Shown here: in pieces, positions 1,958 to 28,829 of the stretch
Layout of the letters: the number at the start of each line of letters is the position of its first letter
Numbering within the stretch: the first letter of the stretch is position 1
Source of the DNA: Bdellovibrionales bacterium
Lineage (GTDB): Bacteria > Bdellovibrionota_C > UBA2361 > SZUA-149
Length of the DNA stretch: 39,551 nt
Assembly: GCA_020434415.1 (NCBI GenBank)
Contig: JAGRAW010000005.1
Location: forward strand, 1 to 39,551
Direction: 5' to 3'
Made by a program: the position numbers and the translations under genes
The notes under the pieces: generated by a model
Database searches by the model: none
The model's input: only the letters and a program-made list of their open reading frames with translations
What the model was told of the DNA's origin: nothing

Positions 1958-2098
1958 AGAAATCAGGTCTCCTTCATCAGTCGTAGACCTTATCGGGGTC
2001 TCGGCTATTGCAAGACAGGGCTCAGCTACGCCGGGACTGTACGCAAGTGAGAGGTCGCGCGATGTTTCACAGGGCTTTGTCGGGCGAAGCTTCAACAT
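1958..2098 (-). pseudogene. Malic enzyme (MaeB-type) N-terminal fragment
   Basis: On the minus strand this reads PTKPCETSRDLSLAYSPGVA followed by EPCLAIAETP. It matches the signature near the N-terminus of NAD(P)-dependent malic enzymes (P-T-K-P-x-x-x-x-R-D-L-S-L-A-Y-S-P-G-V-A). That block normally leads into the substrate-binding tyrosine region and then T-A-K-G-N-L-V-A-V-I-S-N-G-T-A-V-L-G. Here the follow-on is degraded to TTDEGDLISLK and no more of the enzyme (usually over 400 residues) can be traced. The first residues abut a TGGGTGTCC repeat end at 2095-2111, so the gene appears to have been broken at that repeat. It is not functional. Confidence 0.6.
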
Positions 2099-2111
2099 TG
2101 GGTGTCCTGTA
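2095..2111. repeat. Repeat end ACATTGGGTGTCCTGTA (half element)
   Basis: These 17 bases are identical to 5210-5226 and contain TGGGTGTCC, the terminal nonamer of the 75-bp elements at 3600, 3861 and 5065. Only one end of an element is recognisable here. It lies at the start of the malic enzyme remnant. Confidence 0.6.
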
Positions 2112-3503: not shown

Positions 3504-3635
3504 ATGAAGCCCGCACTACCGCTCATTGGAGCACTACTACTTCTACTTTTCCTGCCTGAGTCTGCCTCCGCATGCAGATGCGTAAAGGAAGCGGTTGTCG
3601 CAGGACACCCACTGTTCCAAGTGCCCCAGAACTAA
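3504..3635 (+). pseudogene. Secreted CxC-type protein truncated by a repeat element
   Basis: The frame starts at ATG 3504 and encodes a clear Sec signal peptide, MKPALPLIGALLLLLFLP then ESASA, followed by a mature start of CRCVKEAVV. A Cys-x-Cys at the extreme N-terminus directly after signal cleavage is typical of a group of small exported proteins with a TIMP-like beginning; this comparison is from memory and weak. At base 3600 the sequence changes into the 75-bp GGACACCCA element. That element contributes the remaining residues AGHPLFQVPQN and the TAA at 3633-3635. The natural protein was therefore almost certainly longer and its 3' part is missing. The 43-residue product would be exported, but probably not functional. 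Confidence 0.55.
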
Positions 3636-3674
3636 ATGACTTCGTGACGTGCGGCTCGCAATATGTGGGTGTCC
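3600..3674. repeat. 75-bp repeat element, copy A
   Basis: The element runs from GCAGGACACCCA at the left to TGTGGGTGTCC at the right, with perfect 9-bp inverted ends (GGACACCCA 3603-3611, TGGGTGTCC 3666-3674). Internal blocks CCCCAGAACT, TGACTTC and GGCTCGCAAT are shared with copy C at 5065-5138. It interrupts a secreted-protein gene on its left and abuts an excisionase-type pseudogene on its right. There is no room for a transposase, so it is a non-autonomous (MITE- or REP-like) element. Confidence 0.75.
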
Positions 3675-3679
3675 AGCAT

Positions 3680-3850
3680 TTTATCGGCGTGAGCAAGGAT
3701 ACGGTTTATACGCGTTTATCGGCCGGGACATTGCCTGCCCATAGGATCGATCGTTTCTGAAAGTTTAAGAGGGACGAGGTCGATGCGTAGGTTAGGTCAG
3801 GAGACGCTGCCGATTCCGAGCCTGACGCAAACAATGAGGAATCGGGGTAG
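3680..3850 (+). pseudogene. Excisionase/MerR-like HTH (helix-turn-helix) protein fragment, two nonsense codons
   Basis: The frame reads FIGVSKDTVYTRLSAGTLPA then HRIDRF, a stop (TGA 3758-3760), KFKRDEVDA, a second stop (TAG 3788-3790), VRSGDAADSEPDANNEESG and a final stop at 3848-3850. This is the signature of the small excisionase-type DNA-binding family (L-G-V-S-K-D-T-V-Y-R-W...G-L-P-A-x-R-I-G-R-x-W-K-F-x-x-x-E-V-D-x-W). Both internal stops fall exactly where the family has Trp, so each is a single-base TGG to TGA/TAG change. The N-terminus is missing because the 75-bp repeat copy A ends just before it. It was probably once part of a mobile element or toxin-antitoxin regulator and is now dead. 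Confidence 0.7.
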
Positions 3851-3860
3851 GGGCGAAATC

Positions 3861-3935
3861 GCGAGACCCCCAATTTCTTAGGAGCTCCGGAAGCCACCGT
3901 CTTCGCTACGTGCGGCCTGCAATATGTGGGTGTCC
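3861..3935. repeat. 75-bp repeat element, copy B (diverged left end)
   Basis: This copy has the same 75-bp length as copy A. The right half is nearly identical (ACGTGCGGC, then TGCAATATGTGGGTGTCC). The left end is degraded to GAGACCCCCA instead of AGGACACCCA. It starts 10 bases after the end of the excisionase-type pseudogene, so that pseudogene is bracketed by copies A and B. Confidence 0.65.
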
Positions 3936-4032
3936 ACCATCTTACCTGTTGAAGTGAACGCCCTGTGATTGCTCTCATCCGAGACGAACGGCGTATACGG
4001 TAGACTCGCAGATGTTGACGCCGGGAGTCGTG

Positions 4033-4752
4033 ATGCCTTCGCTCATCAAACGATTGCTCTATTGGACGCTGATGCTCTCGTCATTTGCAGCCGGGGGTAT
4101 GATTGGTGCTTTCGCCTTTTTCGCGTCGGCGGGTGAGGTCTGGTCTCGGATGGATGAAAGCTACTCCCCGGCACTGACCGAGGCGCAAGCCGCGAGAGTC
4201 TGCGCCCGGAGCGCGGCGGCCGAGAACGAATCGCTTTCCGACGACTCCGCGCTACGGATTGGAGACGCATATCTACGAGCCGGCGACACGCGTCTAGCAA
4301 TCAAGTCCTACCGCGCGGTGCTTGCTCGAAAAGGCGACAGCGCCCGGCTCCACAATAGCCTCGGTATAGCCCATCACGCCGCATGGCAGATCGGGCGTGC
4401 GACTGTCCATTATGAGAAAGCCCTTGAGCTCGATCCTGGCTTCGCGCCGGCCTACAACAATCTCGGCATACTCTATGCGTCGAGGCTTGAATTCGATCTG
4501 GCGCGAAGCGCTTTTCGGGAGGCGCTCGCCCTGGACCCGGCGCTCGTTGATGCAGGTGTCAATTACTCCCTTGCTGCGGTCTCCGAAATCGATCTCGCGT
4601 ATGCTCGCGCCGAGGCTTCCACAGAGAAGCAGCCTTCCGCACCGGGAGAGAAGCCATCACGTGCTGTGGTTATCAGCAACGGCTATCGCTATGAAGTAGC
4701 TGCCGGAGGGCGTGTTCAGGTCGCGCCCCTCGGCGTGAAGCAGGCGCGCTAA
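4033..4752 (+). CDS. Membrane-anchored TPR protein
   Basis: This encodes 239 residues if translation starts at ATG 4033, which has GGGAG six bases upstream; an in-frame ATG at 4012 lacks such a site. Residues about 5-35 form one N-terminal membrane segment (LLYWTLMLSSFAAGGMIGAF), so the rest is probably periplasmic. Two to three tetratricopeptide repeats follow. They include ALRIGDAYLRAGDTRLAIKS, then GRATVHYEKALELDPGFAPA followed by YNNLGILYASRLEFDLARSA, with the usual W/L/G/Y/A/F/A/P spacing. The tail carries a basic, Gly-rich patch. TPR domains mediate protein contacts; the partner is unknown. The next gene, 35 bp downstream, encodes a small membrane protein and is probably in the same transcript. 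Confidence 0.75.
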   Translation: MPSLIKRLLYWTLMLSSFAAGGMIGAFAFFASAGEVWSRMDESYSPALTEAQAARVCARSAAAENESLSDDSALRIGDAYLRAGDTRLAIKSYRAVLARKGDSARLHNSLGIAHHAAWQIGRATVHYEKALELDPGFAPAYNNLGILYASRLEFDLARSAFREALALDPALVDAGVNYSLAAVSEIDLAYARAEASTEKQPSAPGEKPSRAVVISNGYRYEVAAGGRVQVAPLGVKQAR

Positions 4753-4787
4753 CTGCCGCCGATTCATTTGGAGGTTGAGGAAACACT

Positions 4788-4931
4788 ATGGGATTTGCAA
4801 TCACTGCCCTTTTTCTCGTCCTGATCGTGCTTGCCGGCTTCGGGTTCTCCATGCGGAACACCCGCAAGCGTAAACAGGCGGTACACACCGGCGATATTGA
4901 AGGGGTGCACGAAAGCTCCGCGTCCAAGTAG
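4788..4931 (+). CDS. Small single-pass membrane protein (47 aa)
   Basis: The ATG at 4788 follows GAGGTTGAGG by 7 bases, a plausible ribosome binding site. Residues 2-21 (GFAITALFLVLIVLAGFGFS) are one membrane helix, followed by a basic stretch RNTRKRKQ and a short acidic tail ending ESSASK. The helix-then-basic order suggests the N-terminus outside and the tail in the cytoplasm. I recognise no family. It lies 35 bp behind the TPR protein, same strand, so the two probably form an operon. Confidence 0.5.
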   Translation: MGFAITALFLVLIVLAGFGFSMRNTRKRKQAVHTGDIEGVHESSASK

Positions 4932-5064
4932 GCCTAACGGTGCCGCTAGTGCTGACCTCGCTCCGCCAGGATCCCGCCCCATCCTCTTCGATTGTGCTTT
5001 TGATGATCGCCGGCCTTTCCAGCTTCCTGGGGATCGCGAGGCTGCCGAGATAGTTGCGGTAGTT

Positions 5065-5138
5065 GCAGGACATCCGATGTTCCGGGAGCCCCAGAACTCA
5101 CTGACTTCATTAGGTCGGCTCGCAATTTGTGGGTGTCC
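5065..5138. repeat. 74-bp repeat element, copy C
   Basis: This copy runs from GCAGGACATCCGATGTTCC to TTTGTGGGTGTCC and has the same internal blocks as copy A (CCCCAGAACT, CTGACTTC, GGCTCGCAAT). The left nonamer has one or two changes (GGACATCCG), while the right one is intact. It lies behind the TPR/small membrane protein pair. Confidence 0.7.
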
Positions 5139-5209
5139 ACCGATTCTCACCGATTCGCCTCAGTTTTCCGAGCTGATTCAAGAAACTTAGGAACTTAGAT
5201 AAAGCGTGA

Positions 5210-5226
5210 ACATTGGGTGTCCTGTA
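5210..5226. repeat. Repeat end ACATTGGGTGTCCTGTA (second half element)
   Basis: An exact 17-base match to 2095-2111. It lies 72 bp to the right of copy C in the same orientation of the nonamer. The downstream sequence is unlike copies A-C apart from a short CCCCAGGACT resembling their CCCCAGAACT block. Confidence 0.6.
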
Positions 5227-22933: not shown

Positions 22934-24001
22934 CTACCGACCCGATTGAACACTCGGTTGTTGCTGAGTAAGGCAATGGAGCGTGCCCTGTCCCAGCACC
23001 AGGTCCCGCGCGTAGACCCCGCGAACTTCCCGGTTGGGGACGAGCTTCTGCAGCAGAGTGAGCACTTCGGCATCTCGACGGTCGTTGAACGTCGGAACGA
23101 GAAGTCGTCCGTTCGCGAAGTAGAAGTTGGCATAACTTGCCGGAAGGCGATCGACGCCGTAGGAAAGTGCCTCGGGGTAGGGGAGTTCCACAACCTTCAG
23201 CGGACGACCCGCGGCATCGGTTGCGCCGGTCAGGCGAGCTAAGTTTTCCTGAGATGAGGCATAGTTATCACTCGTTGCATCATTGTCGACGCAGAGCACC
23301 ACGGTGCCGGGGGCAATGAAGCGGCAAATATCGTCAATATGCCCGTGAGTATCGTCTCCGGCGCATCCGGCAGAGAGCCAGATAGTCTTTTGGATGCCTA
23401 GGTAGTGATTGAAAAGCCGTTCGTAGTCCTCCCTAGTCAGCCCCGGATTGCGCTGTTGGACCTCCGAGAGAAGGCATTCTTCAGTGACAATAAGCGTGCC
23501 TTGTCCGTCGGTTTCAATTGCACCGCCTTCCAACACGAGCGATGCTCCATCAGGCCGTTTCGCCCGCAGGAGGGGGCGTTGAGTCACTCCTGCAACGACC
23601 TCGGGCACCAAGGCATCCTGTTCGAAGTTGTCGTATTTTGCCCAGGCATTGAACTGCCATCCGATCCAGCAAAGTGCGCCGTCCTTGTCGAGCACACCGG
23701 TCGGAACCGAGTCGCGCAGCCAAGACCGATCGGTCGGTGCGCGGTGAAAGCGCACGCCGTCCAGGGGTACGTGGCTGATTTCGAGACACTCTCTCGCTCG
23801 CTGCAGCACGGCATCAGTATGACAAAGCACTTCGACCTGCTCACACTCGCGAAGCAGTCGGACGATCTCGACATACACCCAATCGATTGCCGCCAGTTTC
23901 CCCGGAAAGTCGGTCTCCTCATGAGGCCATGCGATCCAGGTTGCGTCATGGGGTTCCCATTCCGCCGGCATCCGGAAGGTAGTCGGTGTTTGCGTTGCCA
24001 T
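22934..24001 (-). CDS. aguA: Agmatine deiminase
   Basis: The enzyme converts agmatine to N-carbamoylputrescine and ammonia. It has 355 residues from ATG 24001, chosen because it sits 2 bases behind the aguB stop; the frame is open further but would overlap aguB. Family motifs in order: MPAEWEPHDATWIAWPHEET at the N-terminus, the substrate-binding GGAIETDGQGT, DDTHGHIDDICRF with the catalytic His and Asp, and the C-terminal GQGTLHCLTQQQP with catalytic Cys 343. All catalytic residues are present. The length is normal. The next enzyme of the route, aguB, is directly upstream in the same transcript, so putrescine is the expected end product. Confidence 0.95.
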   Translation of the reverse strand: MATQTPTTFRMPAEWEPHDATWIAWPHEETDFPGKLAAIDWVYVEIVRLLRECEQVEVLCHTDAVLQRARECLEISHVPLDGVRFHRAPTDRSWLRDSVPTGVLDKDGALCWIGWQFNAWAKYDNFEQDALVPEVVAGVTQRPLLRAKRPDGASLVLEGGAIETDGQGTLIVTEECLLSEVQQRNPGLTREDYERLFNHYLGIQKTIWLSAGCAGDDTHGHIDDICRFIAPGTVVLCVDNDATSDNYASSQENLARLTGATDAAGRPLKVVELPYPEALSYGVDRLPASYANFYFANGRLLVPTFNDRRDAEVLTLLQKLVPNREVRGVYARDLVLGQGTLHCLTQQQPSVQSGR

Positions 24002-24003
24002 GG

Positions 24004-24852
24004 TTACTCTGTGATTTGGTTGTATGAATCGGGGCGGCGGTTGCGCAGAAAGCCCCATCCTTCACGGACCACCTCGCCATGGTCGAGGTCGACGTCCTGC
24101 ACGATGACTCCTTCCTCTGCACCCGCACGGATTTTGGTCTGGCCGAAGGCATCGCAAATGAACGAGCCGCCCCAAAACGTCGTGTCGCCCTCGATGCCGA
24201 CGCGGTTGGCTGCGGCGACAACCATGCCGTTCGCTATCGCATGCCCGCGTTGGACATTTTCCCAAGCTTCCTGCCAAGGGCCTTCTTTCTCTCCCAAATG
24301 GGCAACGGTTCCGATGGCAGTCGGATAGAAGACCATATTCGCACCCAGCAGTGCGTTCATTCGAGCAGCTTCCGGATACCACTGATCGTAGCAGATGAGC
24401 ACGCCGATCGAACCGAAGCGGGTCTTTGTCACCAGGTAGCCAAGGTCGCCGGGTGTGAAATAATCCTTCTCGAAGAAACACTCGTCTTGCGGAATGTGAA
24501 TCTTACGGTACTTTCCAACCAGCTCTCCACGGTCGTCGAAGATCAGCGCAGTGTTGTAGAAGCGATCGCCGTCACGTTCGTAGATTGAGCCACCCACCAA
24601 GACCACACCGTGCTTGCGGGCGGTCTCCGCGAGCAGGCGCGATGTCGGTCCGGGAATTGTCTCCCCCGGGGACTTCGCATCACGCACAACAGGAAAATAA
24701 GGGGTCGTAAACAGCTCCGGTAGGCAAATTACCTGCGCGCCTTGTCCGGCGGCCTCCGCGACTAGTGCTACCGCTCGGTCTCTGTTCACTTGCGCATCGG
24801 GATCCATCGCCATCTGGACTAGGCCGACTCGAATGACTCGCTGCTCGCTCAT
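24004..24852 (-). CDS. aguB: N-carbamoylputrescine amidase
   Basis: The enzyme hydrolyses N-carbamoylputrescine to putrescine, CO2 and ammonia. It has 282 residues from ATG 24852, which has GGAG 5 bases upstream. The nitrilase-family catalytic triad is complete: E46 in CLPELF, K117 in KYRKIHIP and C154 in VLICYDQWYPE. The following GANMVFYPTAIG and the C-terminal FLRNRRPDSY are typical of the AguB subgroup. It is the first gene of a two-gene operon with aguA, whose ATG lies 2 bases after its stop. The repeat island starts about 90 bp upstream, so the promoter must lie in that short interval or within the repeats. Confidence 0.95.
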   Translation of the reverse strand: MSEQRVIRVGLVQMAMDPDAQVNRDRAVALVAEAAGQGAQVICLPELFTTPYFPVVRDAKSPGETIPGPTSRLLAETARKHGVVLVGGSIYERDGDRFYNTALIFDDRGELVGKYRKIHIPQDECFFEKDYFTPGDLGYLVTKTRFGSIGVLICYDQWYPEAARMNALLGANMVFYPTAIGTVAHLGEKEGPWQEAWENVQRGHAIANGMVVAAANRVGIEGDTTFWGGSFICDAFGQTKIRAGAEEGVIVQDVDLDHGEVVREGWGFLRNRRPDSYNQITE

Positions 24853-24944
24853 GTGCTCTCCATGCTGTCGTCGCAAAAACCGCCGGATTTCTGCGGCGCA
24901 GGATAATCAAGGAAATTCTACAGTGAGTCAATGCCGCGGGGAGG
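24853..24944. other. 5' flank of aguB
   Basis: Probable promoter region of the aguBA operon. I see no strong -35/-10 pair. Confidence 0.25.
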
Positions 24945-25072
24945 GCAAGTCGAGAAGGGCAAGTCGAGGACACCCAATACTGACGAGAGCAAGTCGAGAA
25001 GAGCAAGTCGAGGACACCCAACTAGTCGAGAACTGGTCGAGGAGAACTGGTCGAGGACACCCAATACAGAGG
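24945..25072. repeat. Tandem repeat, about 44 bp x 3, with GGACACCCA
   Basis: Units start at 24945, 24989 and about 25032. Units 1 and 2 share GCAAGTCGAGAAG, a G/A, GCAAGTCGAGGACACCCAA. Unit 3 has ACTGGTCGAGGAGAACTGG in the first part and again TCGAGGACACCCAA. The nonamer falls at 24968, 25012 and 25055 (spacing 44 and 43). Within each unit the 11-16 base word (G)CAAGTCGAG is itself doubled. The nonamer is the terminal word of the elements at 2.1-5.2 kb. Confidence 0.75.
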
Positions 25073-25149
25073 AGCTGCGCCAAGCTGCGCGAGCTCAAGC
25101 TGTGGACATACTGTGGATCTCGATCAAGCTGTGAATAGAGCGAATTAGC

Positions 25150-25341
25150 GGGATCAAGTTTTCGACACCCATTACTCAGCGGCGGAGCGCGCTGGATTGC
25201 CGCGGGAGTGGGTGCGAAATTCATCGACGGGACGGTGGAAGCCCTGGGATCAAGTTTTGGACACCCAATACTGAGCAGCGGACCGCGCCGGATTGCCGCG
25301 GATGTGGGTGTGAAATTCATCGTCGGGAAGGTGGAAGCCCT
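25150..25341. repeat. 96-bp tandem duplication containing the GGACACCCA word
   Basis: Copy 1 (25150-25245) and copy 2 (25246-25341) both run from GGGATCAAGTTTT to GTGGAAGCCCT, with about a dozen mismatches by eye. After GATCAAGTTTT the nonamer appears as CGACACCCA in copy 1 and perfect GGACACCCA at 25259-25267 in copy 2. Each copy also has GTGGGTG(C/T)GAAATTCATC near its end, a partial inverse of the nonamer. Short frames through both strands repeat with the unit and are not genes. Confidence 0.8.
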
Positions 25342-25478: not shown

Positions 25479-28400
25479 ATGCGACGATGCCAGCCGATTG
25501 CGGCACTTTTAGTTCTTCTCACTCCGAGCCTTTGCTTTGCCGAACAGGCGAAAGTGGTCTCCGTCAGGCCGGCTGCGCAGGTTCAACATCAGGCGAGCAC
25601 GGTTCCTGAGCCGGCCACGGTAAGTCGGATAGTCGAAGCAGGAGATACGCTCCAAACCGACGCCTATGGCCGAATGTCGGTGCTGCTGCCGAACCATATG
25701 CTGTTAAAGATGGCGGAGGCGACGACGTTTCTTTATCGCGGTCTCGATGCCTCCGGGGCCGCCGGGCAGCTCAAAGCCGGGAAAGTGTGGCTACGCGGAC
25801 AGCGCCGACCCACTCCGTTTCGAGTGCAGACGCCCACCGCGACAGCCGCAATACGCGGCACCGAATGGTACATGGAAGTGGCGCCGGATGGCACCACCAC
25901 CGTTGGCGTGCTCGAGGGTAGTGTGTCGGTCGAGAATTCGCTCGGCAAGATTGAGCTTGCATCGAATGAGCTAGCCTTGATCGAGCCCGGAAAGGCACCG
26001 GTAAAACTCGCCTATCTTACGCCCCCGAACGCCGTCAACTGGACGCTCTCATATTTTGGGCTCTGGGATGAGGCGGACTATCGACGGGCCGGTCCGGTGT
26101 TGGAGCCGAGGATTCGGGAAATGGTGGCGAACTTCTATCGCTCCGAACTGGCAGAAGCGAATCGAGCGCTGGGACCGGCGCCTGCAAAGGAAAATGCTCA
26201 ATGGCAGGCAGCCGCAGGCTTCCTGGCGATGGTCTCCGGACAGGATGATGAAGCAACTAAGCGATTTCGACGAGCGGGGCTGATTGACCCCGGTTGGGCG
26301 CTGCCGACCGCACATCTGGCGTTGATGGCGCTGGTGAGGAATGACCTCGAACGAGCAGACAAGCTCTCCACTGCGGCCCTCGGGCGCGATGGGAATTCTG
26401 CAGTTGCGTGGGTGGTCCGGGCTTACTGTTTAAAGGCGCAACTTGACCTCGAGCAAGCCTCCGAAGCTGCGGAACGCGCAGTGGCCTTGGCGCCACAATT
26501 CGATGCCGCGTTACTGACTGCGGCCCGCATCGCCCTGGAGCTTGAGCGCTACGGCCGCGCAGAGGAACTCTTGGCGCAAGTTCCGCACGATGCTCCGCTG
26601 GTCGAGCAGAAGCAGACGCTGAAGGGCTACTTGGCGCTTAGACGAAGTGCGGAGGAGGAAGCCCTCAGTGCGTTCGAGCAAGCTCTCGCTGCCGATGCCG
26701 AATCACCGGACGCCCTGATCGGGTTGGGTATCGCCCTCTTTCAGCAGAGCAGAGAGGCAGAGGCGCTTGACGCTTTTGTCCGTGCAACCCTTGTCGCTCC
26801 GCAAGTCTCCGCCTATCAGTCCTACCTGGCGAAAGCATACTTCGCACTCAACCGGCCGGAGGACGGGCTGAAAGCTCTTGCCCGTGCAAAGCGACTCGAT
26901 CCGAAAGACCCGACGCCTTACCTGTATGAAGCCATTTACCAGCAGTCGGAATATCAGCCGGGGAGAGCCCTCACTCAATTGCTTGAGGCGCGGAAGCGCA
27001 ATGACAACCGTGCGGTATTTCGTTCGCGCTATCTTCTCGATCAGGACCAGAGCGTTCTGACCAGTAACTTGGCTCAGGTCTTCAACGAACTAGGCTTCGA
27101 TCACTCGGCCACTCAAGAAGCTGCACGCGCGCTGGAGCTGGACCCGACCAATGCCGGAGCCCATCGCAGACTGTTTTTCGCCTTGCGTTTCGATCCGCGA
27201 GGCTATGAGCAGGCGTCGGCCTCCGAGCGTCTGCTCAACAATATGTTCATGCCGCCCACTCGTACCGCAGTCGTGCTGGACGAGGACGTGCTGACCCCGT
27301 ATGTGCCGGTCTTCGACCGACCCGGCATCGACACCAGTCTTCGCGGTCGGATTCAACACAGCGACGAAGAAACTACGGAATCCACCACAGGATCCGGCAA
27401 CGTGCTGGTGGCGGCGGAATTCGACCACCCGACGGCGCTATCCCTAGACGTCGGTGGAGTAGATGTCGCCGCGGAGCGCACCGAGCTAAGGGCGGGCCGA
27501 ATGGAAGGCGGGTTGGAAACAGTGAATACGGAGACGGATGATCTTGAACTGACGTATCGAGGATTCCTCAAGTCACGCCTCAGCGAAGCGCTCTCGATGT
27601 TCGGGGAGGCACGGTACCAAACGCGAGATGGAGACAGCGACAGCGTAGCACGAGCGAACGATCCCCGGAACATTCTCGGAAACTCGACGCTACTCACCGA
27701 CTCCGACGGAGAGACAGAATTCGGCAACCTCGACCTGGACTTCGGCTCCCATCTTAAAGCCGCTCCCGGACTCGACGGTCTTGTGCACGTTTCCTACCAC
27801 CGGGATGAGACCGACACGGACACGCTCGTCACTGCGCTTGATGCTCCGAGGCCGTCCAGCATGCTCCAGGAACGAGCGGACAGCGAGTTCTGGATCGCGC
27901 AGACGGCGATCTGGAAGCGCTTTGGCGGCCACTTTCTGCAACTGGGTGGGCGCTACTACGATCAAAATGCCGACTTGCGGATGACCAGTAGCGGCCCGGA
28001 GGAGCAGGACCGCGTCGGCGACCGCGGCTCGGAGCTACAGAGCTACTTCTTCCTCGACCAGTATACGGGTATTGAAAACATCGTTGCGGTTGCGGCACTC
28101 AATATCGACCATGCGCGATTCGGCTACGATGCGGGAGGAGAATCCACGAAGACAACGGTTGGCCCTTCGGCTGGAATCTCGTGGCGGGCACGAGAGAACA
28201 TGTATCTGCGAGGTGCCTACATTAACAACCTCGCCGGGGATCGAAGCGAACGCCTACAGCAAACCCTTTTGGCCGGCTTTCCTTTCCAGCGACTGACGCT
28301 GATCGAGCCCTATACCGAAGAGCAGCTTTTCAACCTCGAGTACGAAACAGTCGCTCTTGGATGGGACATGTACCTCGACGAAGCAATGCTGTTTCTAGGG

Positions 28401-28829
28401 GCTGAAGCTGAGTATGACCGGCAAGAGACGGAATCCCTTGCGGATACCGGTTTCGACTCCACGGAGGAAGTCTCCAACGATGCCCTGCGAGGGCGGCTCT
28501 ATCTTGAAGCCCTGCTGAACCCGCAGACTTCCTTCGGTCTCACGTATCGCACGGACTTTTTCGATTTTCCGACTGATACCGAGAGGCATGGGTTTGACGC
28601 ATCGGTTGCCCACTTCTTTTCCTGGGGCATGGGGCTGAAGTTCAGCGCGGGGGTCATTACCTTCGATGAGGAAGGAGACTCCCCGGCCGATGACACCGTG
28701 TTCGTGTTTACGCCGGCTCTTGAAGGGTACCCATTCGACGAGCGGATTCGTCTCAATCTTGCGGCTCCGTTCGACAGCGATGACAACTATGCCTTACGAT
28801 TCAACTTCGTCTGGTATCTGGGTCGCTAG
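25479..28829 (+). CDS. Exported FecR-domain / TPR / outer-membrane-barrel-like protein
   Basis: This encodes 1116 residues. A signal peptide (about 1-21, IAALLVLLTPSLCFA) is followed by a FecR domain (about 35-165; TPTATAAIRGTEWYMEVAPD and GTTTVGVLEGSVSVEN are its hallmarks). A long run of TPR-like helical pairs follows (about 230-600, for example LIGLGIALFQQSREAEALDA). The last roughly 450 residues are rich in alternating strands and aromatic turns (GGHFLQLGGRYYDQNADLRM) and end in FNFVWYLGR, the aromatic C-terminus of an outer-membrane barrel. This suggests an outer-membrane protein with a periplasmic FecR/TPR head. FecR domains here need not signal iron; they are often peptidoglycan- or ligand-binding. 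The cyclase gene follows after 3 bp, so the pair is probably one system. Confidence 0.8.
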   Translation: MRRCQPIAALLVLLTPSLCFAEQAKVVSVRPAAQVQHQASTVPEPATVSRIVEAGDTLQTDAYGRMSVLLPNHMLLKMAEATTFLYRGLDASGAAGQLKAGKVWLRGQRRPTPFRVQTPTATAAIRGTEWYMEVAPDGTTTVGVLEGSVSVENSLGKIELASNELALIEPGKAPVKLAYLTPPNAVNWTLSYFGLWDEADYRRAGPVLEPRIREMVANFYRSELAEANRALGPAPAKENAQWQAAAGFLAMVSGQDDEATKRFRRAGLIDPGWALPTAHLALMALVRNDLERADKLSTAALGRDGNSAVAWVVRAYCLKAQLDLEQASEAAERAVALAPQFDAALLTAARIALELERYGRAEELLAQVPHDAPLVEQKQTLKGYLALRRSAEEEALSAFEQALAADAESPDALIGLGIALFQQSREAEALDAFVRATLVAPQVSAYQSYLAKAYFALNRPEDGLKALARAKRLDPKDPTPYLYEAIYQQSEYQPGRALTQLLEARKRNDNRAVFRSRYLLDQDQSVLTSNLAQVFNELGFDHSATQEAARALELDPTNAGAHRRLFFALRFDPRGYEQASASERLLNNMFMPPTRTAVVLDEDVLTPYVPVFDRPGIDTSLRGRIQHSDEETTESTTGSGNVLVAAEFDHPTALSLDVGGVDVAAERTELRAGRMEGGLETVNTETDDLELTYRGFLKSRLSEALSMFGEARYQTRDGDSDSVARANDPRNILGNSTLLTDSDGETEFGNLDLDFGSHLKAAPGLDGLVHVSYHRDETDTDTLVTALDAPRPSSMLQERADSEFWIAQTAIWKRFGGHFLQLGGRYYDQNADLRMTSSGPEEQDRVGDRGSELQSYFFLDQYTGIENIVAVAALNIDHARFGYDAGGESTKTTVGPSAGISWRARENMYLRGAYINNLAGDRSERLQQTLLAGFPFQRLTLIEPYTEEQLFNLEYETVALGWDMYLDEAMLFLGAEAEYDRQETESLADTGFDSTEEVSNDALRGRLYLEALLNPQTSFGLTYRTDFFDFPTDTERHGFDASVAHFFSWGMGLKFSAGVITFDEEGDSPADDTVFVFTPALEGYPFDERIRLNLAAPFDSDDNYALRFNFVWYLGR

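Follow-up and report, generated by a model that had tools for sequence, protein, structure and literature searches.

Dispersed inverted repeats in a Bdellovibrionales genome and their probable link to a subclass 2.3 TnpA-Y1 transposase

Results

The window analysed here is the whole of a 39,551-nucleotide stretch of contig JAGRAW010000005.1 from a Bdellovibrionales bacterium. It holds ten perfect copies of the nonamer GGACACCCA, which fall into two clusters (Table 1); dinucleotide shuffles of the same window contained the word 0.21 times on average and twice at most, bearing out the initial annotation, which had counted at least ten copies against a chance expectation of less than one. The second cluster (24968-25313), overlooked at that time, consists of three ends whose flanks are duplicated in tandem, plus two elements of 54-55 bp. 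Directly 3' of it lies the gene for a 1116-aa protein with FecR and TPR domains (25479-28829, plus strand). Adjoining genes for a peptidyl-arginine/agmatine deiminase (PF04371) and a carbon-nitrogen hydrolase (PF00795) occupy 22934-24876 on the minus strand and are possibly an agmatine-to-putrescine pair. A scan of the window with Rfam returned two tRNAs only.

The core GGACACCCA is usually followed by AT, AA or AC, and its copies occur as solo ends, as direct clusters, or as inverted pairs with their GGAC edges facing outward. Three full copies of one element had been annotated at 3600-3674, 3861-3935 and 5065-5138. These are real and, when measured from core to core, span 72, 72 and 71 bp; only copy 1, however, is perfect at both ends, since in copy 2 and in copy 3 the left end (AGACCCCCA and GGACATCCG, respectively) has two mismatches. 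The two "half copies" of the same annotation are also present, but they are better described as solo ends; they belong to the subfamily CAGGACACCCAATGTTC, members of which are found elsewhere in the genome as well.

Table 1. Repeat ends and elements, positioned in the window or on the contig named.
Feature	Position	Strand	Remarks
Solo end, subfamily CAGGACACCCAATGTT	2095-2111	-	core 2099-2107
Full non-autonomous element, copy 1	3603-3674 (72 bp)	+	perfect ends GGACACCCA ... TGGGTGTCC; terminal 10-bp stem only
Full element, copy 2	3864-3935 (72 bp)	+	decayed left end AGACCCCCA
Full element, copy 3	5068-5138 (71 bp)	+	left end GGACATCCG
Copy 3 (remark on its right end)	5068-5138		outer edge abutted by a 9-bp match at period 10 (flanking tandem duplication)
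Solo end, CAGGACACCCAATGTTC	5208-5226	-	core 5214-5222
Cluster of three ends (24968, 25012, 25055)	24943-25065	+	13-16 bp match at period 14 before each end
54-bp element, inverted ends CGACACCCA ... TGGGTGCG	25163-25216	+	unit 1 of a tandem pair
55-bp element, inverted ends GGACACCCA ... TGGGTGTGA	25259-25313	+	unit 2 of a tandem pair
Perfect GGACACCCA, left cluster	2099(-), 3603(+), 3666(-), 3927(-), 5130(-), 5214(-)		
Perfect GGACACCCA, second cluster	24968(+), 25012(+), 25055(+), 25259(+)		
Core beside another Y1 gene	C132, 952-1145		CACCGGGTGAC
Core beside another Y1 gene	C110		AGGAACCNGGTTCCT
Core beside another Y1 gene	C649		AGGTGCCNGGCACCT
Core beside another Y1 gene	C142		GGTGACAGAGAC

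A fourth, more decayed member of the 72-bp subfamily lies on contig C259, and alignment of all four copies over about 85 bp gave a mean column identity of 80%. Between subfamilies the interiors are not conserved, except for a recurrent length of 70-73 bp, which is shared by several inverted pairs with otherwise unrelated interiors. Upon single-strand folding, most pairs formed a terminal stem of 9-11 bp and no inner structure common to them; the decayed copy 2 lacked even the terminal stem.

The genome-wide search that the initial annotation had called for was performed on the draft genome to which the window belongs (4.54 Mb in 677 contigs, 79.7% complete). It yielded 104 copies of GGACACCCA as opposed to 12 of the reversed word, and 46 copies of the 11-mer GGACACCCAAT as opposed to one of its reversed control. 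The copies are spread across dozens of contigs, chiefly in clusters that are intergenic as judged by open reading frames only. In each of 45 other genomes of the phylum GGACACCCAAT occurred at most four times. A marked excess of the nonamer was seen in five of the 46 genomes (G000, the window's own, and G001, G027, G038 and G039).

The initial annotation had proposed a mover encoded elsewhere and had suggested looking for a transposase gene flanked by the same ends. Such genes exist in three genomes of the phylum and on gammaproteobacterial plasmids. In the relative G036, a 321-aa Y1 gene stands between inverted arrays of three and seven cores; homologues are bracketed by 5+4 cores in G001, a member of the family to which the window's genome belongs, and by 4+4 cores in G038. 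The window's own genome has the 3' half of such a gene, encoding the C-terminal part, at a contig end (C677:31856-32312). The partial protein is 37% identical to the G001 homologue; ATTGGATGTCC and ATTGGGTGTCC lie downstream of the fragment, and the upstream side and the rest of the gene would fall beyond the end of the contig. Homologues were further found in 13 plasmid records from Alteromonadales, Vibrionales and Aeromonadales.

The bracket was quantified at 18 loci, 13 of them the plasmid records. Upstream of the gene the octamer GACACCCA occurred 24 times on the plus strand and never on the minus strand, while downstream it occurred 22 times on the minus strand and never on the plus strand. 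All 46 exact octamers were thus in terminal-inverted orientation, and the reversed-flank control gave none. Both in this phylum and in Gammaproteobacteria the bracket takes the form (G)GACACCCA ... TGGGTGTC(C) with its outer edges outward. Inverted GACACCCA was present at 14 of the 18 loci and the form GACASSCA at 17; where the exact octamer was missing, three loci had the GACASSCA variant and one, from Vibrio, had neither. Near the gene, the core takes the variant form GACAGGCA in G040 and in Photobacterium. Within the phylum, the gene was present in four of the five genomes with a marked excess of the core versus two of the 41 others. The exception, G039, had 38 copies of GGACACCCA (control 3); the subclass 2.3 gene was not detected in this genome, which is 70% complete.

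Most of the bracketed proteins are 321-329 aa long. The intact ones carry the motifs NHxH, FWEGR and Y[VI]DLNP, with L213 (YIDLNR) as an exception, and 113-114 residues separate the NHxH (HUH) motif from the Y. They match the NCBIfam model REP_Tyr_transpos partially, below its cut-off. The features given for TnpA-Y1 subclass 2.3 by Quentin et al. (2018, Table 1, PMC6006769) are a median length of 325 aa, NHYH, WE, YVDLNP and a spacing of 110. By motifs and length, rather than by a tree, the bracketed transposase therefore has the hallmarks of subclass 2.3. Pfam model PF01797 misses this subclass altogether, which is why the mover had been overlooked at first.

We read the repeats as non-autonomous, REPIN/MITE-like ends and end pairs of the TIRtron type, whose cognate enzyme is a HUH/Y1 transposase of about 325 aa from TnpA-Y1 subclass 2.3, predicted to bind single-stranded DNA and to cut at the outer edge of the core. 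To this reading we assign a probability of about 0.88. The earlier view of a non-autonomous element, MITE or REP/REPIN-like, agrees with it in that the copies are scattered over the genome, are bounded by inverted ends and contain no gene.

Many cores are accompanied by a second feature. Flanking DNA duplicated perfectly in tandem, counted when the match reached at least 9 bp, abutted the outer core edge at 24 of 71 sites but the inner edge at only one of 71; of positions drawn at random from the same DNA, 0.5% showed it. The period was 9-14 in 24 of 25 cases. A typical outer flank reads caaatacc-ggcaaatacc-GGACACCCA. The duplicated unit varies from site to site and must therefore lie outside the copied element. 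When sites from the window's genome and its relatives were pooled, 36 of 38 units began with at least one base in common with the core (G, GG or GGA). These shared first 1-3 bases place the break at the outer core edge and at a G some 9-14 nt further out.

The micro-duplication looks like a footprint of the enzyme at work. In the mechanism that we propose, the subclass 2.3 enzyme would bind the core as single-stranded DNA, probably at the lagging strand, and would cut at the outer core edge, just 5' of G(GA). The end so made would then be joined to a second one, produced 5' of a G lying about 9-14 nt farther outward, or else to a new site; in this way ends and end pairs would spread, and micro-duplications and arrays would be left at their flanks. 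The cleavage chemistry of the TnpA-Y1 family is known from subclasses other than 2.3. We infer that the enzyme spreads the copies found here and that its strand transfer produces the duplications. The broader proposition, that Y1 cutting and rejoining at the outer core edge regularly duplicates 9-14 bp of flank, giving birth to short tandem repeats and marking the cut site of subclass 2.3 and, with other cores, of subclass 2.1-like enzymes, is offered tentatively, at somewhat below even odds.

Should the duplications arise passively, by slippage during replication where a hairpin or a nick-prone site lies, they would be uninformative about the cut; such an origin bears on this one step and not on the identity of the elements. 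We regard slippage as a real possibility, if the less likely one: the 1-3 nt common to unit and core at the junction are what microhomology could yield, and some arrays show growth of simple repeats. The common stretch, however, often amounts to one base only, which is little for ordinary slippage, the periods are narrow (mostly 9-14), and the duplications are one-sided. Moreover, like duplications surround Y1 genes with unrelated cores. Across the phylum, 34 of 58 flanks of Y1 loci contained tandem duplications, compared with four of 43 stretches taken 900-1400 bp from the gene and eight of 68 unrelated ones; the respective counts for a 10-mer present at least three times were 27 of 58, one of 43 and three of 68. 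Together these counts make a core with flanking duplication a general mark of Y1 loci in the phylum.

Arrays of GTAGCCSGGCTAC, GTACCGGGTTAC, GGTACGGGGTTAC and other cores stand in the flanks of subclass 2.1-like Y1 genes of the phylum (e.g., L123, L124, L128 and L130); the 2018 survey, by contrast, gave no repeats for subclass 2.1. A scan of public genomes with a subclass 2.1-like query returned three loci.

The window's genome has Y1 genes besides the subclass 2.3 fragment. The Pfam model Y1_Tnp detected four, and a profile of related proteins of about 330 aa added the gene on C649 and three fragments. Enzymes of this sort spread short repeats, and the genes sit in the same genome, so the elements might belong to one of them, be it a subclass 2.1-like RAYT/TIRYT (C110, C132, C649) or the 225-aa RAYT on C142. 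We consider this quite unlikely. The flanks of each gene carry a different core (Table 1), no GGACACCCA occurs within 1.5 kb of any of them, and in other genomes the GACACCCA bracket accompanies subclass 2.3. The Pfam Y1_Tnp genes were rejected as movers on the same observation, having other cores wherever their flanks were readable. Downstream of the fragments on C305 and C346, recovered with a profile of 23 subclass 2.1-like proteins, no GGACACCCA was found.

Discussion

Short inverted ends, dispersed copies and the lack of a gene would also suit a classical MITE mobilized by a DDE transposase acting on terminal inverted repeats. That origin is very improbable. The check for target-site duplications recommended by the initial annotation revealed none at 11 end pairs, the longest match between flanks being 3 bp, and many copies are solo ends or arrays. 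A Y1 gene has the same ends, and such duplications as occur are tandem and one-sided. Of the MITE or REP label first applied to these elements, the non-autonomous character stands, but they do not represent a classical DDE MITE, nor, lacking both a GTAG tetranucleotide and a hairpin conserved in their interior, a canonical REP.

A local segmental duplication confined to this locus, which would have refuted the initial annotation by its own terms, has practically no chance of being correct: of the four longest related copies, three do lie within 1.5 kb of one another in the window, but dozens of contigs contain copies with unrelated flanks and interiors, which refutes it. Integron attC sites, CRISPR and DNA-uptake words were discounted on reasoning alone, as the sites are clustered, inverted and Y1-linked.

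Among known systems, the subclass 2.3 elements proposed here come close to the REPINs and their RAYTs (Bertels and Rainey 2011, PMC3116915; Nunvar 2010, PMC2817692), which likewise show inverted pairs, decayed solo ends and clusters near the transposase gene. The REPIN-like traits found here are dispersed intergenic inverted pairs, 70-73 bp long at several places and tied to a Y1 enzyme. Unlike REPINs, the elements have no GTAG/GTGG foot and no conserved palindrome in each end, both being absent from the core GGACACCCA, and form only the terminal stem of 9-11 bp. Members of the IS200/IS605 family generate no larger target duplications (PMC3116915; PMC2817692), and their HUH/Y1 chemistry would be expected of the present enzyme too, judging by its protein family. 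The subterminal hairpin of IS200/IS605 was not found here; the ends are short inverted repeats instead.

The TIRs of the TIRtrons, or TIRYTs, offer a further parallel. In the portion of Di Nocera et al. (2013, PMC3733652) drawn upon here, a Y1 gene is bracketed by inverted non-REP repeats, as in our case, and the repeat families form dimers and clusters, again as here. The TIRYT motif GGGGWSAS given in that portion partly resembles our GG-ACAC; GGACAC fits GGWSAS but not the four leading G. Our system combines the core (G)GACACCCA with a micro-duplication at the outer edge, and the latter does not figure in the same portion of the TIRYT description. According to Quentin et al. (PMC6006769), the described TIRYTs belong to subclasses 2.1, 2.2 and 2.5, not 2.3.

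It is with subclass 2.3 of that survey that the proteins studied here agree, in their length of about 325 aa, the NHxH, WE and YVDLNP motifs and the long HUH-Y spacing. For neither subclass 2.1 nor subclass 2.3 did the survey find a REP-like sequence, and it reported no flanking repeats for the latter, whereas we find inverted GACACCCA at the majority of subclass 2.3 loci. The probable substrate of this subclass thus appears to be new, and a search of the open-access literature for the core GGACACCCA or for REP-linked tandem duplication found nothing relevant. Subclass 2.3 had been described in 2018 as lacking recognizable repeats; a conserved inverted core occurring in at least two phyla provides a precise candidate substrate that can be tested. 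The micro-duplications at the outer edge predict where the strand would be cut and offer a route to recognizing Y1 activity from genome sequence alone. If the prediction is true, the duplications would also provide a way for short tandem repeats to arise in the intergenic DNA of bacteria.

Copies of the core also occur among parS sites of the same genome. In L044 (G000:C145:2000-6681), nine perfect parS sites (TGTTTCACGTGAAACA) lie within 1.3 kb (1649-2926), interspersed with six GGACACCCA ends, between parA/parB and rsmG/mnmG, as these genes are named from their sequences. An 82-bp element at this locus contains a parS site and the module is repeated; amplification of the parS cluster seems to have gone hand in hand with that of the element.
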